This document shows, piece by piece, positions 7,457 to 25,500 of a stretch of 64,000 bases of DNA. Source of the stretch: Hawksworthiomyces lignivorus (lineage: Eukaryota > Ascomycota > Sordariomycetes > Ophiostomatales > Ophiostomataceae); assembly GCA_002917075.1 (NCBI GenBank), contig NTMA01000052.1:124001-188000 (forward strand), read 5' to 3'. Below the pieces are notes generated by a model. That model saw nothing but the letters and a program-made list of their open reading frames with translations. It did no database searches and had not been told where the DNA came from. The position numbers were made by a program, and so were the translations under genes. Every line of letters begins with the position of its first letter. The stretch's first letter is position 1.

Positions 7457-9235
7457 TCACTCTGCCCTTTCTTTATATTGCCTAAGGGCATAGTACTCAT
7501 ACCTTGAAGCAGTGCGGATCCGAAATTCTTTTCCCATTCTCAAGAAGAGGCCTGTGGTCATCAAAATGACACACGCAATCAGCAACACGGTGACTAAGAC
7601 ATATTTGATTCCTACCGCAGCAATCCAAGGCGGAAGGGCGAAGATAAAAGCAGTGCTGAAACTATTTCGTATCACCGTGACACCAACTAGCGCATCTCCA
7701 ATAACCTGTGTGCGTTAAGCATGGCTCAATCAAGTAGGAAACACCTGAGTAGAACTTACATCTCTGTACGAGTCGGTCAGGTAAGTCACAACGACGCTGT
7801 TAATTGGAACCACGCCAATATTGTATAATGCTAGTCCAACAGCAATAACCTGCCATGGCAGCTGATTGTTTAGTCCAATGCCAAACAGAAGGGCACCGGC
7901 AGGGACGAACGGGAGGAATGGTATAATGCACCAAAGCCGCATCTCCGGATCGTAAATACCATTCTTGCGACGAGAGAGATATACTATCATCCAGTCACTC
8001 ACTGGGCCTATGATCAGGGCCCCAATAGTGAGGCCAATCATCCTAGGTACGCTCATTAGACCAATCTGATCTGAACTAAAATTATATGGTGGCTTGAGCA
8101 AAAGCGTTGACAATGTAGTTGCCATCACAGCTTGTAAGCCTATTAGGACGCCATACACCAGTGCCGCGAAAGCGACACCAGGTATAGTCACGAGGATAAT
8201 CATAGGTTGATATATATGGCTCAAAATTGAGTTGGTTTGACCAGAAGAGTTTGTGGTGGTAGTGATTGCCAAGCGTTGGTAATAAGTTTTTCTTGGAATT
8301 GTAGGATTTATTGAAACGGCATAGGTTGGAGGAGCTAAATTTTCCTCTATTTTTTGAATTGAGGCAGATGTTATCTCGTAGACAGAACCAGCTACGGCGT
8401 GCGGAACTGCGGCTGATTTATGTTCTGTGCAAGTCGGCGTTTTATAATCTGAAGTTTCAGTGAGACCAAGATTCGAAAGATCGTCGGCTGTGGTACATCG
8501 TGCAAGATCAGGGGGCGCCTGACGAGGTGGACAGAATTTGGTCTCTTCATATCCGAAGCCGACAAGGAAGATGGCAACTCCAAAGAAAATGACATTCCAC
8601 CACCAAACCCATCTCCAACCTTGACCCTTAGTGATATAGCCGGCGATTAAAGAGCTAAGATAGCTAGACAGCTGCAGCACCCAAGCATAAATGGCGTTCA
8701 TTCTTCCGCGTTGATGCACGAAGAAAACGTCAGCTATAGTCATTTGAACGATGACTTCGGCGAGGCTTCCAAATAGGCATTGTAGAGAATTGATGAGGAG
8801 GAGATCTGGGACGGTGCGCATCTTCGCAGACCAAATGCTAAGAGCAAACTGAAGAATAGTGGTAAAGAGATAGAGAGGTCGACGGCCAAATTTGAGAGCA
8901 AATGGGATCAGCAAGATAGAGCCAATGGCTAGAGAAGCACAACCAATTGCGTAGCTATCGTCGAGAGCTGTGTCACTGAATCCAAGCTCTTTTTGCATAG
9001 GGCCCCATGTAGGTGTGTTCGCATCGATAAACTCGAAGACCATCGCAACATAGAAACAGACGAGCCCAAAATTCCAATATTTGCGCCATTTGCCCCAGTT
9101 GAGTGGATCGTTGGGATCTTCCGATGGTCGCGGCTGCGGGATAATGTCACTCCCAGCTTTCAAGTTTAGATCCTCGAGGCACACAGTACCAGGAGGCCAC
9201 ATACTAGAGTTGTTGTTGGCGAGAGAAGGAGACAT
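7457..9235 (-). CDS. MFS transporter, HOL1/DHA1-like
   Basis: Twelve-segment major facilitator at the left end of the accessory cluster. Exons 9235-7760 and 7705-7457 join in phase 0 (SYRD|VIGDALVG) to 574 residues. The N-terminal DPNDPLNWGKWRKYWN leads into segment 1, and the GRRPLYL loop between segments 2 and 3 is the MFS signature. A long cytosolic loop near the middle separates the halves, and RKNGIYDPEMRL is the typical HOL1-family C-terminal half motif. HOL1-type fungal carriers move organic cations, polyamines or metabolites; the substrate here is unknown. ATG 9235 is chosen because upstream in-frame residues lack an ATG and membrane logic. A CGG-N11-CCA palindrome lies 390 bases upstream. 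Confidence 0.85.
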
Positions 9236-9927
9236 AGCGACACTTTTTGGTCGGGATAATATAAGTGATTTGGAGAATAACACTGGGTTTTGGCTTCTGA
9301 AAACTTGATTAAAACCAATGGAGTACTTATATGGGAAATTTATAGAACAAAGGTTCACAAGGTACGTCAAAGACAATCTCCAGCCATTCTGTAAAGATTG
9401 TTATCATTTAGACTATCTCCAAGAGGCCGCGTTCGAATACGCATCGTTGCACTCGATCGACATAAAAACCTCAATCCTTATCAGAAAGACTAGTTGTAGG
9501 AAGTAACCGCGCGTAACTTGGCGTGTTAGGTTGTGAAGAATGGTTCTGGTCGTTACATCCGACAAGTCACGGACCAGCCACAAAAGGCTTGGAACTAGGG
9601 CTAACGCTCCGCATGGACTGACTCTGGAATTTCATATTCCGAGGAATTGATACTAGTGTCATGTATGTTTAAATGCAATTTACTTCATTGAAAAAAATGT
9701 GAGCAAAGTGACGTGGACTTTCAGAACCTGAGAACGTACGCATCACTTCAGAGGTTCCACTTTCTATCCATTACAGGAATTAAATCCACCAGCCCGCCGG
9801 CGGCTCTAGTGACTGAATTCTATTCGTTCTCAACGAAGCTTCGCTCTTGGGTGCCAATCCACTTCCAGCTTCTGATATCCCTTTATGCCATTTGATTGTT
9901 TCTAGATATTCAGATATGAGTCCAGAT
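9236..9927. promoter_or_regulatory. Promoter of the MFS gene; 3' end of the reductase gene
   Basis: About 690 AT-rich bases. The only feature I can support is the 17-bp palindrome at 9625-9641, listed separately. No gene is visible. Confidence 0.5.
9625..9641 (-). promoter_or_regulatory. Putative zinc-cluster operator, site B
   Basis: On the minus strand it reads CGGAATATGAAATTCCA: CGG, 11-base spacer, CCA. It is 15/17 identical to site C (19214) and 16/17 to site A (11359). It lies 390 bases upstream of the MFS start and is the only such site in that promoter. Flanking sequence is not shared with the other copies, so it is not simply a dispersed repeat. Confidence 0.6.
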
Positions 9928-10989
9928 TTAATAGAAGTTATCTACAATTATACCTAAATTTTGCACCTTCGCCATCTCTAAAAGCTGCTTGCCAACTACA
10001 AGGTCCATAAGAGCCATTCCTACACATTTGTAGATAACATTACACCCTTTGGGGACTCGTATTTCTCTAGATGGGCCAACGTCTTGCAAAACATATCCGA
10101 TTTCGATTAATTGCTCCTCTGGTATCCTCGCTGTAACCAGTTCGCCAGCTTCCTCCAGGCATGCTTCCTTTGAATCAACATAAATCTTGCCTCCGCCAGA
10201 TAGAAGAGTTGCAGTATCAATCTCGCGCATGTGTGGTTTGTACGAACCGATCAGCGATATGAACCGCTGTTTCAGCGGCTCTGAGCCTCGAAGATATGAA
10301 AAGGGGAAGTTTGGCTCAGTCGATGGAGTACAGCTGAAGATCACGTCGCATTGCTGCAACTCCTTTCGAAGTTCGTCATCGTAGTTGGCGGCGTCATCTT
10401 TTGCTAATGAGACGAACTCAACCTTGTTATATTGCTGGCGGAGACTGACAAGCTTATCATTGAGTAAAGACTGGAGCCTCTCAGCGCACCGACCAACAAA
10501 CGTGATGCGGTCAACAACATCCGGGAATAGCAATAGCAATAATCGTGCATGCCATTCTGCCTGCAGACCGGATCCGAAAATCAATATAGATGATTTCGGG
10601 ATTGAAAAACAGCGCATTAGTAGGATCATTGTTGTCATGGCAGTCCGAAATGCCGTGATTTCTCGAGCACCGAGGAGGCCATATAGTCGTCCATCTGCTG
10701 CAAAGATGTTGATCACACCGAGAATACCACTCTCACTGATGGTGACTGTCTTGATACAGTGATTGATAGAATCGGACACAGGCATGAACAACGACAATTT
10801 ATTTGCTCTACTGAGGATACTACTGCGTGGCGGCTGGTGGAGGAATCTCTCCCCTGGCGAAATAGTAGACTTCGACTCCATAGAAAAAATAACAAGCGCG
10901 TTAGCCAAGGAATCAAGAATATCATGACATTGTAATCTGTTCAATTGATGACAGATTTGGGTCACCTGGTAGTCTGTAAGAATATGCAT
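9928..10989 (-). CDS. Ornithine cyclodeaminase / mu-crystallin family protein
   Basis: Uninterrupted 353-residue protein of normal family length. The family includes ornithine cyclodeaminase, alanine dehydrogenases, ketimine reductases (mu-crystallin) and SbnB-type amino-acid synthases; all bind NAD(P) and work on amino/imino acids. Visible marks are the conserved Lys80 in HCIKTVTI, the GLLGAREITAFRTAM block (residues 104-119), the Rossmann turn FGSGLQAEWHA (GxGxQA, residues 138-148), and the DVIFSCTPSTEPNF and GSYKPHMREID blocks lining the active site. It starts at ATG 10989 and diverges from the TauD gene across a 549-base promoter holding operator site A. Which reaction it performs cannot be decided from sequence; it is probably cytosolic. 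Confidence 0.88.
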   Translation of the reverse strand: MHILTDYQVTQICHQLNRLQCHDILDSLANALVIFSMESKSTISPGERFLHQPPRSSILSRANKLSLFMPVSDSINHCIKTVTISESGILGVINIFAADGRLYGLLGAREITAFRTAMTTMILLMRCFSIPKSSILIFGSGLQAEWHARLLLLLFPDVVDRITFVGRCAERLQSLLNDKLVSLRQQYNKVEFVSLAKDDAANYDDELRKELQQCDVIFSCTPSTEPNFPFSYLRGSEPLKQRFISLIGSYKPHMREIDTATLLSGGGKIYVDSKEACLEEAGELVTARIPEEQLIEIGYVLQDVGPSREIRVPKGCNVIYKCVGMALMDLVVGKQLLEMAKVQNLGIIVDNFY

Positions 10990-11538
10990 ATCTCAAACTA
11001 TAGTTTTCAAGTAACTCGGTATTGGTTAAAGGTTGGTAAAGAGTTTTTCTTGGTCCTTTTAGCAACTTCGATAAACTTTCGAAAGCCAGCTTCAAAAAAC
11101 AATCGAGATGCTTCTGAGTCGATAAGTCTTTTATTGCTGAAAATTCAATGTCTAGAATTCGTATAGTTATAACAAATTATGGTGAAAATATATTCACTTT
11201 GGTAAAAATTATCAGAGGCACAGAAAGCGATTCTCTCCAGCCACTTAGTCCACGCGACATAACTACGATTCCAAGTTCCGGTCCTTATTCGGAGCAACTC
11301 TGTGCTAGTGCTTCAAGTCATGAGTGAAAACATTGATGAGAGTGATCTACGCTTGTGACGGAATATGGAATTCCACGTGAGATGGAATTCCACGGACAAA
11401 GTAGAGTTTAGGAGCTCGGCGGATGACATCTGATCCTGTAACTGCTTAAATATCCTTTGAGGACGACGACAATGGCAAGATCAAGGCAATTACACTTTGG
11501 CAATCAAATTGAAACAATCTCTATCATCCTCAACAAGA
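10990..11538. promoter_or_regulatory. Divergent promoter, cyclodeaminase-like / TauD genes
   Basis: 549 AT-rich bases between two outward starts. They hold operator site A with an imperfect tandem copy (11359-11394) and a weaker look-alike on the minus strand at 11264-11280 (CGGAACTTGGAATCGTA, 12/17). Three HGATAR matches (11069, 11120, 11209) are present but not above chance. Confidence 0.6.
11359..11394 (+). promoter_or_regulatory. Putative zinc-cluster operator, site A, tandem pair
   Basis: The first copy, 11359-11375, is CGGAATATGGAATTCCA (CGG-N11-CCA) and is followed by CG. The next 19 bases, 11376-11394, repeat it with 16/19 matches and share TGGAATTCCACG, whose first ten bases are a perfect palindrome. 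The two copies are 17 bases apart, about one and a half helical turns. The pair sits 163 bases before the TauD ATG and 370 before the cyclodeaminase-like ATG. Confidence 0.65.
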
Positions 11539-13040
11539 ATGGCTCCTGGCATAACACAAGACCAACGCACCGTGACTACATTTGAGGCCAAGGGTGCTCC
11601 GGCCGTTGACAAGACCAAAACGACATTGGTGAATACGGACGGTCTAAAATACCCCGAGTACTATCCATATAATGACCCTAGTGATGTCTTTCCGGAGCCC
11701 GAGCCGTTTGATTACCACGATGTGGCTTTGGATGCCGACCCAGCCATGCCGGTTTTCTACAATGATCATGTCCAGATTGAAGAGGTACGTACTCTCTTGC
11801 GCTACTTATCTGAAGCTACGACTAAAGCCACCTTCGCCTGTTCTCATCATACAGAAGCTGATACACAAGAATAGCTTACTCCTTATCTTGGAGTCCGGGT
11901 TACAGGCCTTGATCTTGCTACGCTTGATAAAGCTGGTAAAGACCAACTTGCGCTTCTTGCCGCTAAAAAGGGAATTGTCTTCTTCGCCAGCAATGACACG
12001 GTTAAGCAAACCTTCAGGGACATCTCTATGACGGAGAAGCTGGATATGGTGCGATACTACGGGCAGCTCCACCAACATGCCGTCCAGCCTAGGCCCCGAG
12101 GCTCTACTGAGATTTCAGTTGTTTATCAGGATAATTTGAACACAGTCCGAGTGAGTTGCTCTTTTCATCTTTGCATTAGTAATTCCTTTCGTCACGTACT
12201 TTTGCCTCCATGCTTTTTTCTAGTGGATTGCTATTTTTCTTTAGTTCCTCCAGCTATCCTATTGGACATCGTCCTTAAAGAGTTATTTGTATCTAACGGA
12301 TTGTGGTAGAAACACTGGTGGCCAAATCGCCTATCTAGAGCTATCTGGCATATTGATCAGTCTCAAGAACGTCAGCCATCCGGAATAACCTTCTTCTGTT
12401 GCATGCAGAGTGATGGTCCCTCTGGGGGTGATACACTTGTCGGTAGCCTTGTCGAGGCTTACGAGCGCCTGAGTCCACCAATGAAGCAGTTCTTATGTGG
12501 CCTCAAGGCCGTCCACTCATCGAAGATCTCGACAGCTAAGGCGGCCAGAGTAGGCGGAGCAAATCGAAGAGAAATCGTTGAGTCATTACACCCTGTGGTT
12601 TACGAACAACCGGTGAGTCTTCCTACAAATTCTAAACAGCGGCAAATTCTACTCAGTTGACAATTTTTTTGAGGCCACTGGTTATAAATCTCTCTACATA
12701 AATCCAGAGCAAATCACGCATTTTGAAGGTTTACGCCATGAGGAAAGCGATTATCTCTCAAGATTCCTTAGCGATCATATCACCAAGGGCGCAGACTTTC
12801 ACGCCCGGTATAAGTGGAATGAAGGAGACGTTTGCGTCTGGGACCAAGTGAGCTGCCATCCAGACTCTTTGGTGCGCAAAAAAATAGTACTAACTCTGTC
12901 AATAGCGGGTGTGTATGCACTCAGCCACTTTGGACAACATGGAGCATCGTCGTCACTTTATCCGAATCATAGCTATGGCCGGCGTTCCGACTCAGGCGAA
13001 GTATACTTTGCCGACAAATGAAGATATGTACGCTACATAG
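11539..13040 (+). CDS. TauD/TfdA-family Fe(II)/2-oxoglutarate dioxygenase
   Basis: Five exons (11539-11784, 11875-12150, 12310-12612, 12674-12847, 12906-13040), all phase 0, give 377 residues, the usual length for fungal alpha-ketoglutarate-dependent sulfonate dioxygenases. Family blocks: PYLGVRVTGLDLATLD, KKGIVFF, IWHIDQSQERQPSGITFF with the iron ligands His188 and Asp190, GGDTLVGSLVEAYERLSP, then the distal His338 in CMHSAT and the 2-oxoglutarate Arg in HRRHFIRI. These enzymes hydroxylate next to a sulfonate or similar group so that it is released; taurine is the classic substrate. The acid after the HID motif (QSQE instead of the usual DVSYE) and the Cys-rich FFCCMQS stretch differ from ordinary taurine enzymes, so the substrate may differ. 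An ATG-less extension upstream was not used. Confidence 0.88.
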
Positions 13041-13565
13041 TGGTCTGGAAGTCGCTTTAGCATCAAACATTGAACTACACAACAAGGCCTAGCCGTGTTG
13101 CGCTAGAATAGAACTGGTGGAGATAATTATGTATTACATTGAATATGGAGAACAATGTTCCAGTACTAGTCGGCCATATTGTCCTGTTTCCATGCATTAA
13201 GTAGAGGGAAAATCTCAATTACTATGTGACCAGGATTGTAACAAAGTCGGTTGAGCATGCTGAGAATAAAGAGAGGTTCAAGGAGCACGACGATATGTCA
13301 GAACATCTCTAGAACAAAGCATTAGATCCAATAACCAAGACGAAGCAGGTTGACAGCCATCAGATTAATCACCAATGCCATACCTAGGGCTGAATCCTCG
13401 CCGTCTCCTAAAATGCTCAAATTACAGAAACCTGATATGAAGCTCAAGCTATAGTACTCAACGGCATTAGAAGATAGTTGAAAAACTGGTTGCACAACAC
13501 GGATAGAACGTGCCTGTGATTGAACCTGTTTCTATATATACGCCGATCATTGCACTGCGAATATG
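13041..13565. other. Intergenic, convergent ends of TauD and Zn2Cys6 genes
   Basis: About 525 AT-rich bases between two converging 3' ends. No open frame, operator-like palindrome or RNA gene is visible. Confidence 0.5.
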
Positions 13566-16500
13566 CTACCGGGTAAAGCGTCTGCTATCATTGTTGGATG
13601 CTGGCCAAACATCGCTGTCAAGCATATTGAACAACTGATTGGACCACAACTCGGAAAGCATCTCCGTATCTCCCTGCATCATTCCAGATAAAGAAGGCTC
13701 TGGTATGGGGCCCAAAGAGGATGCGTATGAGTTGTCAGACCAGCCGGTAAGCTGCCACATCCACGACGTATTGTCTAACGCTATGCTTGAAGGAACGTAA
13801 GCCTGGTCAGAGGCTGCTGGTTCGGCGGGGGGAATTGCTATAAATTGCACAATATCAGCATATATCTATTCAGTGTCTGAAATAGGACATCCACAGACGG
13901 TATGAGTAGGGCGTATCGTGAGAGTTTCCATTCCCTGGCTCGAATTCAAGAGTGTTGGAACGAGTCCCACAGGAGTCCGGAGGTCTCCAGCCAAGGTACT
14001 GTAGCTTCTGGGCTACCTCGGGATCATTTTGAAGCATCTCCTGAATGTCGGTTGTATCATATACTGGTGATGATAATACAACTTCATTTTTTTCGCTAGT
14101 TTGTTTCGAGCTAGCTTCTCCTGTTGAAGGCCCATACAAGTTTCCGAGTTTGGTGTGCCATTCTTGCAGCAAACGTTCCAAGACGTTCCCGCTTAGCATT
14201 GCGCATTTCCATGTCTGGCCCATCGAACATAAGATATCGATACACTTCTTAACTAAAGTGATGTTTGACTTGACGCGGTTTCCGTTGGCGGTGTCTAATA
14301 TGTGAATGATACCGGCAGTGAATATGAATTGAGTCATTGAAACCGGAGCATGTTGCAAACCAGAATTCTTGTCAAAGAGCTGAATATTGACAGTGTTTCA
14401 GTATCAACCAATCTAGAATTAAACTAGCGCTCCAGAGAGACAATTATTATTGACTAACCTCAGCAAGGTGCACAATCGCTACCCTGTAATAGGTTCATCA
14501 GAATCTCCTGCCTAACGAAATCGTATATGATTCTTGTTGACTTACGCAGCGTGATGACAGTTCTCTTTAGCAGCGACTGAAATATTTGCGTCTTTCTTTG
14601 ATTCTTCCGTGGATATTGCCAATGTTAATATTGGTATTTGTGCTACAATCTTCAGCGGTTTTGACGTGTCGCAATAGTCAGTTCGGTGGAGGAGTATTAA
14701 AGCGAAATGGAACATTATATTCATGACAAGAACGTGAGGCGGTAAGTTTGAAGTGTTCTGGCTTTCGACCATTACTTGGTTGATACGAAGTGGCTCTGGG
14801 AGCTCTATTTGCCACTTCCCTAACAGCACACTAACCAGGAGGCAAGGTCAACCATCATCCACAAGGCTCTCGGGAATCAGGCGAGAGAGTACTTACCATA
14901 GTTCAGATTTGATTCGCCTTGTTTTGTCAGAGTAGATATCTCTTCGGGTGGAGTAACTTTTTCGGAATTAGTTTTCAAATTATGCAAATCACCATACGAG
15001 CCTATATAACTGAGGCTTTAAGGGAACCACAAAGGCTTACATGTTGACCAATATGAGTTCAATAATCCTAGCTAGCTTGCAAGTCCAGCTGAATGCCGAT
15101 GCTATCCAAGACTTAGGTTGCTCAGAGCCAGTGCCATCTAGATTTTGACGTGACTTTGCATCTTCCTCCTCATTCTCAGCTGGATATGCCATGCGCCAGT
15201 GGGAGAGGTTCGGAGCAGGTGCACGCCCAACATAGGTTGCCCACAGCTTGTCCTGAATGTAGGCAGTGTTCCAAACTCGATCGCGATAACGCTTAGTTCG
15301 CAGGGTAATGATATCCATGTCCACCAAAGATGATGTCTCGACACCAAGACCAACTATAATCCCTTTGTCAGTTGATGACTGCATCACTGCAATATTTCTT
15401 TCCTAAGGAATGGTTTTCTCACGTATTCGACAAAGTCTGAGGCCGGCGCCTATGTACATGTACCCTAAGTTATGTCTGGCGTGTCCCGCGTGATGTGATC
15501 CCAGCAGCATCAGCCCTATGACAGCGCTCACTTTCGCCATTTCAACTTCTTCCTCAAAAAGAGAAGCCGCCTTTTGGCCGAATGAATCTGATAGAATTTC
15601 TCGTTCGGAACACGGCCTATCGTCAAGATACATGGCTCCAACAGCGAGGATAGCCAAGTGCATAAGTGGGCTGTAGTAAGCTGTACGAAGATCCCGCCGA
15701 ACAATCGCGCCTTTCTCTGTTTGGATGACACCGAGCTCTTTTCTGAATTCATCTTCATCAACCCACCAGCACCAAGGGTTGAAGTACGCAAAGAAAGCGT
15801 CGATGGCTTTATGTTGCACTTCTTTCTCCAGTTCCTCTGTGATATTTATTGTCGAAACGCTTTCTGTATGCGTTGTGGTATCGGAGGGGGACGTTTTCAG
15901 ATGCATAGGAATAAGGGAGGGGAAATCATTGGGGAAGTGCCTGAACACTGATGTCGGTCCGTATTCGTTGACTTCACCAGTGGCATTATCAACCTATTAA
16001 TATCGTATAAATAGCTGTAATTTTGCTTAAAGAAGAGATCAAACAGTAGTCAAGCAGTTTGCTAGAAAGAAAGAGGCGGGGGATGGTGTACCTGAAGATG
16101 CTCGATACGATCATGGGAAGCCTTAGGTCGCGTGAGCAGGCGATCAAGTGATGAGCCATCATCTCCACCTACTCTCCTATCTTCCGCATCCTCTATAAAT
16201 TCTTTCACTCCGCTTCCTTCATCTCTGTCCTCTACTATTTTCTCCAGCCAAGCTACACGCCGTTCAAGAGCTGCGACGTACGCTTTCGACACTGGCTTTC
16301 GTCTGTCTTCGGCATCGTCGTAGATGCAGTCGTCATTGTTTATCTTACAAAGTGCTAGATCAATACATATGACATTAGGAATATTGCCTCGGCCGTAGAG
16401 ATAGAGGGAAACAAGTCATACAACAACTAGGTCGCTCGCCGTTACAGCGAGATTTTCTGATTTCCCTGTTTAGCATATTTCTTGACGCCAGTTCGAACAG

Positions 16501-16638
16501 CACGAAGACATAGCATCAACATATCAAGATGCAAGTACAGACTTACTTTCGGCGGCATGGATTGCATGCTCTTGTGATATGTGTAGTTCTTCTCCTCTTC
16601 CCGGTACGGTCGACGTTGGCTTCGTCAACTGAGTCCAT
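13566..16638 (-). CDS. Zn2Cys6 transcription factor, likely cluster regulator
   Basis: Ten exons rebuilt by phase: 16638-16547, 16456-16422, 16354-16092, 15993-15423, 15386-15041, 15009-14897, 14819-14546, 14483-14459, 14379-13899, 13837-13566; about 823 residues. The zinc cluster spans the first three exons: C25, C28, C35, C42, C45 and C52, exactly CX2CX6CX6CX2CX6C. A linker and a coiled coil (about residues 62-85, YVAALERRVAWLEKIV) follow, so it should bind DNA as a dimer. The fungal transcription-factor middle domain covers exons 4-6 (FFAYFNPWCWWVDEDEF; GYMYIGAGLRLCR; RVWNTAYIQDKLWATYVGRAP). The last intron is the least certain (donor GTCTGT). It sits in the middle of the cluster, and its own promoter has a CGG-N11-CCG palindrome at 16936. 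Confidence 0.85.
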
Positions 16639-17927
16639 GGCTATCTTCCTTTTCCCTTGGATGAGATGACAAGCAATGAGAAGTACCAAGTGCATAAATC
16701 GGACCTATACCTAGCTGGCCAAAGGGAGCTTCATCCATCTTGATGGAGACGGGAGAAACGAATGTACGTCACATGGTGTGGGGCAGATAAGGGGAAAGCG
16801 ACTGAGATCAGAGGCCAAGAAGCGAGTAGCCCCCAGTAGTGAATAAACTTTCGAATTAGGCCTAGTTATTTCTCGTTTAAACTGATGAGGCATCACAGGG
16901 GGGTTTTCACCCTGTTCTCTATGAACCGTCTTCTGCGGATTATGAAATCCCGGTGTAAACGGTCAGGCAATTTTAGTCAATGTAATTAATGGACCAACCA
17001 CATTTGATCTTTACTGGTTAGTTATCGAATTGCCCAAGTTCTGAAGTTTGAAATTCCAAGTGAACCATTTGCAAACGGAACGGTCCCCAGAGTCATGGCA
17101 TTTCCCCACTTATCAAAGTTACAATTCTATGACAGTATACCAAGCTAAAATTGCAGTGGACCTGCTCTGCGCGAGAGTATACATATATATCTTGTAAAAC
17201 GATTATTACGAAACGTAGAGGTCCTCTTAATTATACCGATATTGGCCTTGGTCTATAAAAGGCAAGATGAGGCTGGTATATGAAGGGATGTTCAACTACT
17301 TGAGGAAGTTAACATCGTAATGCACTTAGATGAACAGAAAATCAACAAACACTTAGTGTAGCTGTTGCCTTCCAGCACTCAGAGTCTATGTGAGGAATAC
17401 CGTTCAATCTGTCTCTACACAGAGGGACAGACAAGGTACAATGCTCTATGATGTCATAACTGATTGCTACTAGGTAAGCGTGATTTAGCAGTCACTTGCA
17501 GAAGTTCTCTTGTCGATAGAATTTGCGTTACTACCAAACAAGCTATTGCAGCGACCATGAATAGGACTTGGCTACCTAGGAAATAGAAACTGCGCAGCTA
17601 CCTGACGTACGGGACTTTACTCCCTCTTTTTCATTTCCGTGCTATCACTAATTATAGGCAAAGATATCAAATGCACTTTCTGCACAAGGCCCCTGATGAT
17701 AGACCTAATCCCAAGTCAAAGAATTCTAGCAGGTGTGACATTATATAAATAACCGCGATTTAGAGAACTGTACGAGTAACACAGTTAAGTACGATAGCTT
17801 GGTTTAGAGTCAACAGACATATTTGTAATAGTTTAATTGCGAGCCAACAGGTGTGGATTCCAATGGCGAGTAACAATTATGTAGTTAGACACCTACTTAA
17901 TTGGAATAACAGTTTCACCAGCGGCTA
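16639..17927. promoter_or_regulatory. Regulator promoter and 3' flank of the hydrolase
   Basis: About 1.3 kb of AT-rich DNA upstream of the Zn2Cys6 gene. The one site I support is the palindrome at 16936-16952. No additional gene is visible; open frames here are short and unlike any family. Confidence 0.5.
16936..16952 (+). promoter_or_regulatory. Putative zinc-cluster operator, site D (autoregulation)
   Basis: CGGATTATGAAATCCCG: a complete CGG-N11-CCG with both triplets intact. Its spacer matches site B in 9 of 11 positions. It lies 298 bases upstream of the regulator ATG, a position suited to autoregulation. Confidence 0.5.
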
Positions 17928-18596
17928 TCAACTTGGCGATGTATGTGCAATGCGCTCGACCACATTCTGACTAGAGCAGACTTCTGCATAGACGTTCCGA
18001 ATCGCCCGTACCGTAGCCCAATGCATTTCCTCCACAAAGGCTGCGCAGGCGTCCTCGGGCATGACGACTCGATAGCCAAGGTCTGCAGCATCTCGCACTG
18101 CAGTCTCCACGCAGCCAGTAGTGACAACGCCACAGATAATCAAGTTCTCGATGCCAAGGTTTCGTAACACGCGGTCAATGCTCGTCGAGTTAAAAACGCT
18201 CGATGCTGTCTTGGGAAATACCAACTCGTCAATGAGAGGAGCAGTTTCTTTCAGAAATCTAGCCTTGGCAGATCCAGGTGGATAGTGACAGGCGAGGGTT
18301 TTGTGAATGTTGCTACGGTCTTCGCCGCTCGACGTCAAAGATTGGATATGTGTATGAAGAACGGGTAATCCCGCTGTCCGAAATGCGACTAGAAGGCTTC
18401 TTATAGCTGGGATAGTAGTTTCATGTAGCCTTTCCGAGTAGTAATTTTGTTCAGGGTGCAAGCAACCGTTTTGCATGTCGACCACGAGGAGTCCCGTTTT
18501 TTGCGAGCTGAGATTCACAGGGGGGAAAGGGGGTCGATTTTGGAGGTACGGGTCATTGTCGATCGCGGGTAAGTATTTTGTGTTTATCGCCATCAT
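17928..18596 (-). CDS. Isochorismatase-like cysteine hydrolase
   Basis: Single-exon 222-residue protein starting at ATG 18596 (a second ATG follows immediately). The catalytic triad of the family is visible: Asp40 in LLVVDMQNG, Lys129 in VFPKTASSVF, and Cys162 in GVVTTGCVETAVRDAADLGY. Members hydrolyse amides such as N-carbamoyl amines, nicotinamide or ureidoacrylate; only a minority cleave isochorismate, and the name is historical. No signal peptide is seen, so it is probably cytosolic. It diverges from the Dal5-type permease, as expected if the permease brings in its substrate or a precursor. Operator sites C and E lie between the two. Confidence 0.88.
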   Translation of the reverse strand: MMAINTKYLPAIDNDPYLQNRPPFPPVNLSSQKTGLLVVDMQNGCLHPEQNYYSERLHETTIPAIRSLLVAFRTAGLPVLHTHIQSLTSSGEDRSNIHKTLACHYPPGSAKARFLKETAPLIDELVFPKTASSVFNSTSIDRVLRNLGIENLIICGVVTTGCVETAVRDAADLGYRVVMPEDACAAFVEEMHWATVRAIRNVYAEVCSSQNVVERIAHTSPS

Positions 18597-18907
18597 TCCT
18601 ACAGTTTAGCTCCAAAACATTTGGAGACAACCTGTATTCTAGGGGAGCAGAAGTGTGACTTTTGGCGTTGCTGATGAGGCACGACTCAATTACAGACATA
18701 AAAAGTCGAGTCCACAAGAGGTAGAGGAGTATTTATGGTACATTTGCATATATAAGTCAGGGTTGATATTGAGACTTAGAATCTTGATTCAACTGTATTA
18801 CCCTTGGTTCTCGTGTTCTGGTTGGCAAGTAAGGAGGTGAACGGTGATGTAGAAGCTCTAACTTTCGCTTAGTGACGGCCTTCGTCCTTGCTTAGGTGCA
18901 AACATCA

Positions 18908-18924
18908 CGGATTTCAATAACCCG
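18908..18924 (+). promoter_or_regulatory. Weak candidate operator, site E
   Basis: CGGATTTCAATAACCCG keeps both CGG/CCG triplets and the 11-base spacing, but the spacer is unlike sites A-D beyond its first bases. It lies 312 bases upstream of the hydrolase ATG. It could be coincidence. Confidence 0.3.
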
Positions 18925-19213
18925 GCGTAATACGTGCAAAGTGCTACGTCCGTCTTCATTATCAAGTAGAGGCTCTAAGCTAGGCCTAATCCGATTAACA
19001 CCACACCTCAACTACTTTTACACTTGAAATGCTTCGTACTGTAACCCATATGGAGGTTTTCAATAACCAAGTTGCAGGATAGACTTGGAACCAAATAATG
19101 CTTCCAGCTGGACTATTATTAAGGGCATATTTTTAAGCTCTGTTAAACAAAGATAGCTTACTGGTGGCAAGAAGTCCCGAGTTTCTCGAGTATTCAAAGG
19201 CGACTTCTTATCA

Positions 19214-19230
19214 CGGAATATGGAAATCCG
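19214..19230 (+). promoter_or_regulatory. Putative zinc-cluster operator, site C
   Basis: CGGAATATGGAAATCCG: a perfect CGG-N11-CCG, identical to site A over its first twelve bases. It lies 618 bases upstream of the hydrolase ATG and 793 before the permease ATG. Confidence 0.6.
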
Positions 19231-20022
19231 CTGCTGGAGCTAGTACACTCGGTATCAGTAGCGCTAGCCTGCGAGCTGGTTGGTGGCGTCAAGAATTAGC
19301 ACACCCAACTGATTATGTATTCAGGCCAGGCCAAAAGGAGTTGCAGAACCACGAGATAAGGCTGCTGTGTTGCGTATCACTCTCGGCTTTGTCCTCGTGC
19401 CGCATCTGAGGTAAATCGGCATTGAAACCACATTGAAGCTGTGCTTTCTGAATCGAATTTTGCAGTAGCCTGTAGCATCGGGTGGCGACGGGGAGGGCTA
19501 ACTGACTCTATCATTCGCAACTTTGGGGAGTTGGTCATGATCACATCTGCTCTCATACCATCCCTCTCGATTGTTTAGGTCTGAATAGGAGGCTGTGTGC
19601 CTATACAGTGACACGTCTATTCTCAGAGGAATTTTCAACATTTTGCAGTTCATTGAAATATGACTGTCAGGTTAATCGAATAAGCGTAAATGAAGATTTA
19701 GTTGTGATCTTTCCAATTGGCGACACTTAACAAAGAATACAGTCTTGGACTAGACACAGATTTTGCAATACTCAGATTCCATCTGCTCTCGCCGGGAAGC
19801 AGCCGCTGCATGGCTAGGCCTAGATCTGTCCTCGCGGGAAATGAAATCACGGCGTGTCAGTTGATATCAGGAGGCATGGTCGTAGATAAGCCAGCCAATA
19901 CATCTCAAGTATATTAATCTCAGACTCCTTAATACAGCGACATTTGATTATCAATTCACGGACTTTCAAATCCACTATTGGCCATTTTCACTTTTGACCT
20001 TAGCATTATATACATTTTGAAC

Positions 20023-21592
20023 ATGTCTTTCTTCTCGAGATTCCGCGAGGTTATCTGGGGCAAGCCGGCTGATACAAAGGCAGAGCGCCGGCTGATCTTC
20101 AAACTTGACTTAGTGATCCTGTCCTTTTGCTGCCTCATGTACTGGGTCAATTACCTTGACCGGGCCAATTTGAACAATGCGTACGTCAGTGGAATGAAGC
20201 AGGACCTCAACTTTCACGGAAGCCAACTTAACGTGATCAACACAAGTAGGTAAAACCTATTGATATTTCAAGTCCAAAAAAAAGATGATGCTGATCAATA
20301 TCACGCAAAAAGTTTTCTATGGCGGATATGTATTGGGACAGGTTCCGAACAATCTTGCTTTGCAGAAACTATCCCCACGAATCTACTTCCCGGCTTGTAT
20401 GATTATTTGGGGTCTTTTGACTCTCGGAACCGCTTTCACACACCATCCTTGGCAAATCATGGTGATCAGGTTCTTTCAGGCAGCTGTTGAAGCCTCAACT
20501 TTCGTCGGCTGTCACTATATTCTTGGAAGTTGGTATAAGGAGGAGGAGCTAGGCAAACGAACCGCCGTTTTTACGAGCAGCGGCCTTGCTGGAACCATGT
20601 TCTCGGGGTTTCTACAAGGAGGGGTGTACGAAAGCTTGAGTGAGTTCGATGACAATCTGCAGCAGATCCTTCGAAGTATTGTTGCTCACACTTATTTTAT
20701 GGTTTCAGATGGAAAATCGGGTCTCGCGGGATGGCGATGGCTCTTTGTGGTTGACTTTCTTATTACGCTCCCTATTGCCTTCTATGGCTTCTGGGCCTTT
20801 CCTGATACTCCCACCTGCACTAAGGCAAAGTACCTGAACGATCAAGAAAAAAAGCTTGCTGTAGAGAGACTCCCCGAAGTCTCTAAAGTACGCGGCGAGC
20901 TGGGCTGGAGTTTAATCTCCCGAGTCCTAGCTTCATGGCACTTTTGGGGCTTTATTGCTATATGGACGGCTGCTAGCAATACTGAAATGTATTCCATCAA
21001 CGCCGTTATGAATCTGTGGCTCTCAAGTACCGGAAACTATACGGTCGAGCAAGTTAATTATATTCCTACGGGAGTGTCTGCAGTTGGGATTATTGCCACC
21101 ATATTTCTAGGCTGGTACTCGGACTTCGTTAGAAAACCATGGCATGTTGGCATATTCTTATCATTTACGGCCATGATATCAGGCTCCATAATGCTCAACC
21201 CTCCTTCGGTAGCATCGAAAATGTTCGCCTTATTCCTGAACGGTTGCCAAACTGCCAGTCAAACCATTATGTTTGCTTGGGCCAACGATTTAACTCGAAA
21301 TGATGATGCAAAAAGAGGAGTTGTTCTCGCCGCCATGAATACAGTTGCTGTTGCTGTATACATGTTTTGGTCGCTTATCTTCTACAACGCTACTCAAGCT
21401 CCCAATTGGAGAGAGGGGAATATAGCCATGGTGTGTATGGGGGCAACATTGCTGGCAGTCACTATTACCCTTCGCTGTTTGGAGGTTAGGGACAAGAAGA
21501 GGCACCTCGCAAATGGACTTGCACCAGTCAGTTCTCTCAAAGAGGTCGAGCTAGAAGATGACAGTGGCCCAACGAAACACGAACTAGCATAG
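20023..21592 (+). CDS. Dal5-type (anion:cation symporter) MFS permease
   Basis: Exons 20023-20245, 20313-20639 and 20709-21592 join in phase to 477 residues. The second intron (69 bases) has no stop, so an unspliced reading inserts 23 residues after VYESL; the spliced form restores the family motif LNGKSGLAGWRWLF. Other marks are MYWVNYLDRANLNNAYVSGM in segment 1, INTIFYGGYVLGQVPNNLAL, AFPDTPTCTKAKYLNDQEK after segment 6 and TRNDDAKRGVVLAAMN. This family imports allantoate, ureidosuccinate, dipeptides, vitamins and sulfur compounds into the cell at the plasma membrane. Beside a TauD dioxygenase a sulfonate or amide nutrient is plausible, but not shown. Confidence 0.9.
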
Positions 21593-22506: not shown

Positions 22507-25500
22507 ATGGAAGCGCTTCTCAGCGCTGCCGGAGCCGATGGTGGTGACTACTACGGTGTCGGCGGCCAGCCTGCGTGCCCCTCAGTCGAGGAGCTGGCGG
22601 GCCGCCTCGCCCTCCTCACGCGCGACAAGGTGTCAGCCACACGTGCTGAGCACGTGTCCGTCTCGTTCGAAATTCCCGTGGATGTTGTGCTGCACCTGCG
22701 CGGGGCGGAGGATGGCGACGAGAGCAGTATCTGCGTCCGTGGGGCCACCAGCCTTGACGCCGATGCTGCCAACGCCGACGATGCTGCTGCCTTGGCTGCT
22801 ACAGAGCGCGACACCGTTGCTGTGCGCGAGGTTGTGATGGACCAGGCCGAAGCCGACCAGCCGGCCCTGCAGCGCGTCGTGGCCGCCCTGCTCATGCGCG
22901 CCGTGCGTAGCGCAGACGGCAGCCGCTGGGCTATGCAGGCGGCCACGCGCGCCGCCCAGGGCTGGACCGTCGCCTACGCCTGCCAGGACTCGCACGCCAG
23001 TTGGCTCCAGGCCCAGAAACGGCGGCGCCAGCCACATATCGTGGGCCTCTCAACAGTCGAGGACATGCAAGATTCGGTCAGTCTATGTACGTCGCAGCAG
23101 CTCAACAAGAAGACCCTGCTCTCTTCCCTCACCTCCCCTCATCTCATGGGCCGCTGTGCTCGCTAACGCTCTCCTCCCTTTCCAGCCCGTCCTGCTTTTG
23201 ACTGCCGGGGCGCGGTCACCATCACCTTCTCGCGCTTCAACCGGTCCATCATCGTCAAGTACGAGCACACCAACTTCCACCGCACCGTGGCAGAGCTCGC
23301 TGAGCTCTTTCCTCAGCCGCGGCCCCCGTCGCCCCTCATCTCGCCCGCTCCTCCCCCTAGCTCGGCGAGCAAGCGGCAGAGACCGGCTGGCGACGGCCAA
23401 GAGGCCGGAAGAGGTACGCCCAAAAGGGCAAGGCGAACTCCAACAGCAGCTACTGAAGATGTTGTTCTATTGGGGGCAGATGAAACAGCTGCGCAAGACA
23501 CTACTTCAGAAGGTAATATTAGTGGCCAGGCACGAAATGGTGCCAAGAGAACACCGAATAGACCGAAGAAACCAAGGAAGCCGAGAAACGCATCGGCCAA
23601 AAACAGGCATGACAGCGCGGACGCTGCAGCAACTGTCAGCATAACGTCCAATGGAGAAGACCTCGCTATTACGGCAGTAGATGGAACGATGGACTTAGAT
23701 ATTCACGCAGCTTCTTCTTCTTCGAACCGGAACGACGAGCAACTCGAGGAAGCGCTCTTGCGACATCTCGATGAATATGCAAACGCAAACCCAGAGTCCA
23801 CAGAGACCCCAGTGGGCACGGTCTCCCAGCACAACCAAGCTCTAGAAGAACCTAACAGACAGGTGGCTCGAGAATCTGCAGCAGCTGTGAGCCATTCTCA
23901 TGCACAGAATGAGAAAGTTGCAAGAGGGAGTGCCACGAACGGGCCCGAATCTACCCAGACAAGACCATCTTATGTTTCTATTGCACCTGCACCCAGTAGC
24001 ATCTATTCGGTCGCTGGGATGGCAGAAACACGTATTCCGCCATACAAAACCGTCACGGACGCCGAAGCAACGACGGCCCGGAGGTTGGCCGCCATCAAGA
24101 TGCTCGAGGAGCGCAACATCGACCCGGCGACCCTGACGCGCGAACAGTTCTGCACGCTTGCGAACCAGGCGCCGGCTATCCAAAAGGAATCCCTCGACCT
24201 CTTAGCGAAGTATGGTGCCGAACGGCTAGCTATTGTGCCTGCGAGCGGAGGACGTTCTAACACAACTACTGCGTCACCAATCTCGGCTTCTGTCTCAACT
24301 GCTCCAGCAAAGAAACCAAGAACCAAACAGCAAAGTGACGGAGCGGCCGCAGACGCAGCCGCCGGAAACACTACTGCTGTAGAAATCTCTATTCCGCCAC
24401 AAACACTATCTTCCCCAGCAAACACAGCTCTCCCAAATCTTCGCAATACGAATGTGAGAGACAGCACAACAGCAGCGTGGTTCAACGCATCGCAAACTGC
24501 AGGAGCCAAAGAATCTCCTTCTCGGGTATCCGACTCGGCTCAGAAAAGGACAGCGGCTGCCGGTAGACCACCGCAGAGTGCTGCTCCGACGAATAAACCA
24601 CGTAGCCAGGTCCATACATCAACCTTCCCGCTAGCCAAGGCGCTCTCAACTCCTCACTGGACCGCCTCGGTTACAGAATCTGGCGCACTTCCTTTAGCTG
24701 TGCCGAGCGACAAGCCTGCCAAGGCTCCTAGGAAGCCAAAGGCACCACGCAAAACGACCAATGATTCCGCTGCACCGCCGCAGGTTTTGCAGCAAACCAT
24801 TTCGAACATACAACAATCAGGCAGCGCTGGTACGATGGAAGGCCAGAGCCAACAAACTTCTGGGACGTCTCAGCACTATGGCACGTATTCTGCACTACAA
24901 CAGCGCTCTCTATCCCAGGCGTTCTCAGGCAGTGCAGCGCATTCAAGAACAACAAACAGCGCTATGGTGACTTCGGCCACGGCAAACATAGGAGCCATTG
25001 TGGGCTCTGGTGCCGGTGGCAACAGTTCTGCATACACACAATACGAGAACTACACGACGGACAACGGTGGCGGCAGCGGGGCCAATAGCGACACGATCGG
25101 TCCACAACTTGCATTCGATAAGTACATCAGCGAGTATGGACGACAGGCTGATCTACCCAGCTATGACAGCTTTTCAAGTCTCGGCGGAATAGAAAATTCC
25201 AATACAACAGCAACCCGGTCGACCACAACAACTGCTAGCTGGTTGCGCTCGTTCCCTCAAGCGTACACCGCCCCTTCGTCTTCCAACGCCAATTCTGGCA
25301 ACACCAATCAGTGGTCTACTGGAGTGGAACATAATCCTGTTGTGTATTCCGCGGGCATGCAGCAAGTCACACCTGCTGGGCGTCCCGGCTCCGCTCTAAA
25401 CGCAATATCCGATCCGCCAGACATCTCAGGACTTCCGACGTCGTCTTTGCCCCCGGTCCCACTATTTCGAAACAAAAAACATCGGTATTCGCAGCGGCAG

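Follow-up and report, generated by a model that had tools for sequence, protein, structure and literature searches.

What co-ordinates six neighbouring genes in a 64-kb stretch of Hawksworthiomyces lignivorus DNA (contig NTMA01000052.1; the whole stretch is hereafter designated the window) that encode two major facilitator superfamily (MFS) carriers, three enzymes, and one Zn2Cys6 protein? A preliminary description had reported a 17-mer of the form CGG-N11-CCR in the four promoter regions of this group (cluster 1; contig C140) and had proposed that the Zn2Cys6 protein binds it. All four reported 17-mers, with their positions and strands, were recovered, and they lie in the four promoter regions of the six genes also when the gene models are intron-aware. 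A fifth (site E), which had been missed and which is closer to the hydrolase gene than site D, was found in addition. Judged from the sequence, we consider it likely that the 17-mer is the operator of Gal4-type Zn2Cys6 regulators encoded in this cluster and in a related second one (cluster 2; contig C186), which would bind it as dimers and co-regulate their own clusters. The five sites of cluster 1 are as follows.

9625..9641, minus strand: site A, CGGAATATGAAATTCCA, ending in CCA; the MFS transporter gene starts 390 bp downstream.
11359..11375, plus strand: site C, CGGAATATGGAATTCCA, ending in CCA, in the divergent promoter of the cyclodeaminase-family gene (ATG 370 bp away) and the TauD/TfdA-type dioxygenase gene (ATG 164 bp away).
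16936..16952, plus strand: site B, CGGATTATGAAATCCCG, upstream of the regulator gene, the ATG of which is 298 bp away.
18908..18924, minus strand: site E, CGGGTTATTGAAATCCG, upstream of the hydrolase gene (ATG 315 bp away); this site is a perfect CGG-N11-CCG.
19214..19230, plus strand: site D, CGGAATATGGAAATCCG, in the divergent region between the hydrolase gene (ATG 621 bp away) and the permease gene (ATG 793 bp away).

Every one of the four promoter regions thus carries inverted triplets 11 bp apart, with a CCA end in two of the five sites. The motif can be written in half-site form as YGGRWT-N5-AWYCCR (relaxed) or CGGRWT-N5-AWYCCG (strict), and its central five bases in cluster 1 are ATGRA or ATTGA. 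In a scan of the whole genome (43.7 Mb), the consensus CGGAWTATGRAAWYCCR had four exact matches, namely, sites A, B, C, and D, and the three copies of CGGAATATG in the window all lie within the cluster, as had been noticed by eye. Because the consensus was made from these very sites, its uniqueness is partly built in. With up to three mismatches, the window held 10 matches as against 2.26 expected (standard deviation, 1.53), a number reached by none of 100 shuffles; with up to two mismatches, the genome held 113, as against 52 for the reversed pattern. The relaxed form had 99 matches in the genome, and five of these lie in the cluster 1 promoters (3,959 bases), where 0.009 were expected. Moreover, the strict form occurred at 21 places, three in cluster 1 and two in cluster 2, and, apart from these cluster pairs, no two strict sites on one contig were nearer than about 227 kb.

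Two tests against chance that do not rest on the consensus alone were then applied to the promoters. When the best 17-mer common to all four promoter regions was sought, whatever its sequence, the winner was site A with a score of 44 out of 51, which was reached by none of 4000 dinucleotide shuffles (maximum, 42) and, in a genomic null, by three of 3000 sets of real segments (44, 44, and 47), all of them A- or T-run words. In the other test, a symmetric leave-one-out matrix was run over 173,614 background positions taken from the rest of the window and from other fetched loci, 26 of which are weak matches with that match masked. No background position scored as high as sites A, B, or D, whereas one did so for site C and two for site E; the position for site C is site G of cluster 2 (below), which also equals site E, and the second position for site E is C16:20330-20346. 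Inverted pairs of the relaxed half-sites in the promoters, scanned at spacings of 0–15, numbered five at spacing 5, one at spacing 15, and zero otherwise, with two direct pairs and one everted pair over all these spacings. Inverted pairs in the whole genome numbered 88, 99, and 77 at spacings 4, 5, and 6, respectively, and there is therefore no large global excess of spacing 5.

The genes that these promoters serve are the following.

7457..9235, minus strand, ATG at 9235: MFS transporter of 574 residues, modelled with one intron; Pfam MFS_1 on exon 1.
9928..10989, minus strand, ATG at 10989: ornithine cyclodeaminase/mu-crystallin family gene, single exon, 353 residues.
11539..13040, plus strand, ATG at 11539: TauD/TfdA-type dioxygenase gene, five exons, 377 residues.
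13870..16638, minus strand, ATG at 16638: Zn2Cys6 regulator gene, the first five exons of which are modelled (16638-15041), with intron 5 and the 3′ end uncertain; 13870 is merely the end of a reading frame.
17928..18593, minus strand, ATG at 18593: isochorismatase-family hydrolase, 221 residues.
20023..21592, plus strand, ATG at 20023: MFS permease of 477 residues, three exons, Pfam MFS_1 ("Dal5-type" in the preliminary description).

The regulator gene sits inside the cluster, between the TauD and hydrolase genes. A site shared by every promoter of the cluster and rare elsewhere, as had been proposed, is what we found; five genes have one within 164–390 bp of their start, but the case of the permease is weaker, and of the six genes its link to the sites is the weakest.

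Cluster 2, the most interesting part of the finding, came to light when the regulator protein, rather than the motif, was used as the query. This search revealed a paralogue of the regulator on contig C186, with 48% identity across two segments of its middle domain; in its DNA-binding domain and linker, 39 of 58 residues are identical to those of the regulator, with the cysteine spacing kept.

C186:119001-145000 (26 kb fetched): cluster 2, comprising TauD2, a divergent MFS permease, an HpcH-type aldolase, a D-glutamate cyclase, and the paralogous regulator; genes for a nucleoside hydrolase and a PfkB kinase lie farther upstream.
C186:129833-129849: site G, CGGAATACTAAAACCCG, in the divergent region of TauD2 (minus strand, start at 129615) and permease 2 (plus strand, start at 130021 or later).
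C186:126518-126534: site J, CGGATTAGCCAAACCCG, upstream of the cyclase gene, the ATG of which (126765) is 230 bp away.

TauD2 is 68–83% identical to TauD, stretch by stretch. Sites G and J are the two exact relaxed matches in these 26 kb, which hold two strict sites as against 0.0125 expected. With the cluster 1 matrix, site G ranked at the top of the 173,614 background positions and site J (score, 13.1) was fourth best. Their central five bases are ACTAA and AGCCA, and both carry a CGGGTT half. The aldolase gene has a weak CGG-N11-CCG upstream of it (C186:134026), which was left uncounted; 13 background positions, itself included, score as well or better. The preliminary description had envisaged a regulon of one cluster. 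The shared sites and the regulator within the cluster support it, but the sequence suggests that the regulon is probably wider and takes in two clusters.

The candidate reader has the make-up expected of a protein that binds such a site. Binuclear clusters of the Gal4 type follow the pattern C-x2-C-x6-C-x5-12-C-x2-C-x6-8-C, and the regulator conforms to it with C-x2-C-x6-C-x6-C-x2-C-x6-C, spliced together over three exons. Pfam assigned Zn_clus at 39.9 bits (cut-off, 21) and Fungal_trans at 68.6 bits, and behind the zinc cluster there follow a linker and a coiled coil, the latter read from the sequence without a predictor; the earlier claim of one Zn2Cys6 protein with a coiled coil in the cluster was borne out in these respects. 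Among solved structures searched with phmmer, the best match was GAL4 (1d66; E = 2e-9), the next protein was Lac9, and PPR1, LEU3, and PUT3 scored lower. The alignment with 1d66 continues through the linker, in which the regulator has one extra residue, into the coiled coil. Protein relatives of the regulator occur in Penicillium, Neocosmospora, and Clonostachys, and in Penicillium canescens and Clonostachys solani they have a similar linker and coiled coil. In Neocosmospora mangrovei, moreover, relatives of TauD and of the regulator bear consecutive locus tags (Neosp_009059 and Neosp_009058, respectively), which suggests an old partnership. As a separate observation, intron 5 of the regulator gene (15040-15009, minus strand; donor at 15040) has in-frame acceptors only at 25 or 31 nucleotides, which is unusually short, or at 210 nucleotides, which skips an exon, and an acceptor at 39 nucleotides is out of frame. 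The gene may be unusually spliced or altered at this point.

A mechanism can be proposed from these features. The 17-mer would be a dyad operator, YGGRWT-N5-AWYCCR of the CGG-N11-CCG class, for the Zn2Cys6 regulator encoded in the cluster. The regulator would form a dimer via its coiled coil, each zinc cluster reading the CGG (or TGG) triplet at one end of the site; the 11-bp gap would be set by the linker. Dimers would sit at the nearest sites, 164–390 bp upstream of the starts of the MFS transporter, cyclodeaminase-family, TauD, hydrolase, and regulator genes; for the permease gene, where this is less certain, the distance is 793 bp. The sites would turn the genes on jointly, the probable signal being the compound that is moved by the carriers and converted by the three enzymes, and the regulator would control its own gene through site B. 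The paralogous regulator, with its near-identical reading head and linker, is predicted to control cluster 2, or to share in its control, via the same site.

Several observations weigh against this operator model. Contrary to the earlier wording, CGG-N11-CCR alone is not enriched, as the promoters hold five places as against 4.6 expected from the density in the window (74 places), and sites A and C, with CCA in place of CCG, are imperfect versions of CGG-N11-CCG. The five places in the promoters are, however, exactly sites A–E, all with extended half-sites, whereas elsewhere in the window one of 69 is so extended. Specificity thus resides in the extended half-site rather than in the triplets. 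The exception, an exact relaxed match at 25185-25201 (CGGAATAGAAAATTCCA), falls within a neighbouring reading frame of 786 residues. Genome-wide, both the relaxed (99 vs. 45) and strict (21 vs. 15) forms outnumber their reversed controls, and a background of such words therefore exists. In addition, the nearest good site of the permease gene is 793 bp off, and intron 5 of the regulator gene is odd. In a matrix and pattern scan of the C186 locus, the second regulator's own promoter showed no good site, so that autoregulation is not general. Two further paralogue loci inspected, C90 (a cyclodeaminase paralogue, 35% identical) and C16 (a permease paralogue, 63–82%), lack an exact relaxed site, and exact sites were consequently present at one of the three loci inspected (the genome has further paralogues), namely C186, which also holds the regulator paralogue. 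Finally, the recurrence of the site is shown within one genome only. On C90 there is also a two-mismatch match to the full consensus (322632-322648), which fails the relaxed half-site pattern and lies about 3.2 kb from the sole other cyclodeaminase relative found in the genome.

Could the sites be a chance assembly or a dispersed repeat? The consensus was derived from them and CGG-N11-CCR is common, yet the genome-wide counts, the shuffles, the genomic null, the spacing scan, and the second cluster all speak otherwise. As for a repeat, the 15-base flanks are mutually unlike by eye, in line with the earlier remark that they are unrelated, and exact copies of the consensus are these four only. 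This explanation was rejected as hardly credible. A real operator read by another Zn2Cys6 protein encoded elsewhere, such as a general regulator resembling CLR-2 or Gal4, with the linked regulator using other sequences, has more to commend it: Gal4 and CLR-2 recognise CGG-N11-CCG as well (PMC6498484), and the genome holds many zinc-cluster genes (47 of the 57 stretches matching the regulator fall within the first 133 residues of the query, some of them being pieces of one gene). A general regulator should, however, have many strict sites, and there are only 21, five of them in two clusters with paralogous regulators. Seven of the other 16 were viewed, and the open frames that adjoin or enclose them are unlike the cluster genes by eye, without a family search; likewise, the open frames viewed around one-mismatch sites elsewhere (L005–L010) include no evident relative of a cluster gene. 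We therefore regard a foreign reader as rather unlikely. The sign of the control is a further question, since sites in all promoter regions, including the regulator's own, would equally suit a repressor that silences the cluster until a ligand arrives. Most fungal zinc-cluster proteins that are built like this and govern one pathway, however, activate their targets, and a repressor site appears quite improbable.

An extension of the operator model, not an alternative to it, is that one regulator, or a heterodimer of the two paralogues, binds all sites, and that the clusters on C140 and C186 are co-induced by one signal. The half-sites and the gap are identical in both clusters, the reading heads and linkers are alike, and the dioxygenases are paralogous, but the central five bases differ (ATGRA or ATTGA as against ACTAA and AGCCA) and a CGGGTT half occurs in both cluster 2 sites; the two proteins may therefore have diverged in preference, and co-induction is possible but doubtful. 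Equally tentative is the broader picture that one operator code, CGGRWT-N5-AWYCCG, unites two related clusters, separate in location and different in composition, as a single regulon of two paralogous Gal4-like proteins, possibly acting as heterodimers. Such a network might have grown by duplication of a regulator–dioxygenase pair, with different neighbours recruited and the site kept, and within it one regulator would have a site in its own promoter and the other none.

How does this system compare with known ones? The extended half-site of Gal4 differs from CGGRWT, the form found here, and the Gal4 linker is one residue shorter in the alignment. Gal4 of yeast and CLR-2 of Neurospora are described as sharing CGGN11CCG recognition (PMC6498484). 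The regulator is predicted to resemble them and Lac9 in combining Zn2Cys6, linker, and coiled coil with inverted CGG triplets 11 bp apart; its predicted targets, unlike theirs, form a dioxygenase/cyclodeaminase/hydrolase/transporter cluster and are not galactose or cellulase genes. AtrR of Aspergillus fumigatus also reads inverted CGG triplets, and one of its listed elements has a CGGAAT half, but its gap is N12 (CGG-N12-CCG) and its element occurs at close to 900 genes (PMC6414702), in contrast to the N11 gap and the predicted local cluster regulon here. The proline (prn) cluster of Aspergillus nidulans likewise contains a Zn2Cys6 regulator, a transporter, and prnX, the product of which is proline-inducible and of unknown function (PMC5983819). 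Neither a proline oxidase nor a pyrroline-5-carboxylate dehydrogenase, however, is among the six products here (MFS, cyclodeaminase family, TauD, Zn2Cys6, isochorismatase family, and MFS), and the sites here are CGGRWT inverted pairs, those of the PrnA type in the prn cluster being CCGG repeats. The use of a shared promoter motif to define a cluster recalls CASSIS, which predicts fungal clusters from regulator sites shared among promoters (named in PMC9335490); CASSIS is a method, whereas the subject here is a candidate regulon, the motif of which was noticed by eye and then met again in a paralogous cluster. A search of open papers found none on this gene combination, and the passages and listings inspected do not describe this site.

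The principle of a linked zinc-cluster protein and a shared palindrome is textbook matter with many precedents; what is new is this case of site and clusters, the type of control being already well known. For an unstudied regulator, the analysis provides a precise predicted operator together with a list of predicted targets, and thereby a starting point for finding the substrates of the two clusters. Moreover, two paralogous clusters with the same site and several differing neighbours make a neat case for the growth of fungal cluster regulons.

As to what cluster 1 does, one may reasonably guess that it serves to take up and degrade a nitrogen compound. The cyclodeaminase-family protein, a predicted target, has fungal relatives that include several named PrnX, with 51–61% identity (among the 120 listed of 488), and its nearest solved structure is a thiomorpholine-carboxylate dehydrogenase, which we take to be a ketimine reductase. 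The nearest relatives of the hydrolase are putative and cysteine hydrolases and amidases. When these two enzymes were scanned against NCBIfam, no model reached its cut-off. The TauD protein is nearest to taurine dioxygenases and related enzymes. Its closest named relatives include those of Niveomyces and Neocosmospora (83%) and of Cryptococcus (74%) and Cryptotrichosporon (68%), a patchy spread that may reflect horizontal transfer; a search for TauD relatives that covered viral contigs, with stray fungal DNA in view, yielded none.

Further site-like sequences lie beside the sites of cluster 1.

11376..11392, plus strand: partial copy of site C, adjoining it, with three mismatches and a 17-bp period.
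19835..19851, plus strand: weak site-like sequence, CGGGAAATGAAATCACG, with three mismatches, one of its triplets (the second) being broken; the permease gene starts 172 bp downstream.

The weak sequence at 19835 is doubtful, being equalled by eight background positions in matrix score. The core of site E (18909-18922) is repeated 146 bp off at 19055-19068 with 93% identity, without the outer CGG triplets. At 11358-11391, site C and the partial second copy form a tandem of 17-bp period with 82% identity, and two operators may thus stand side by side there.

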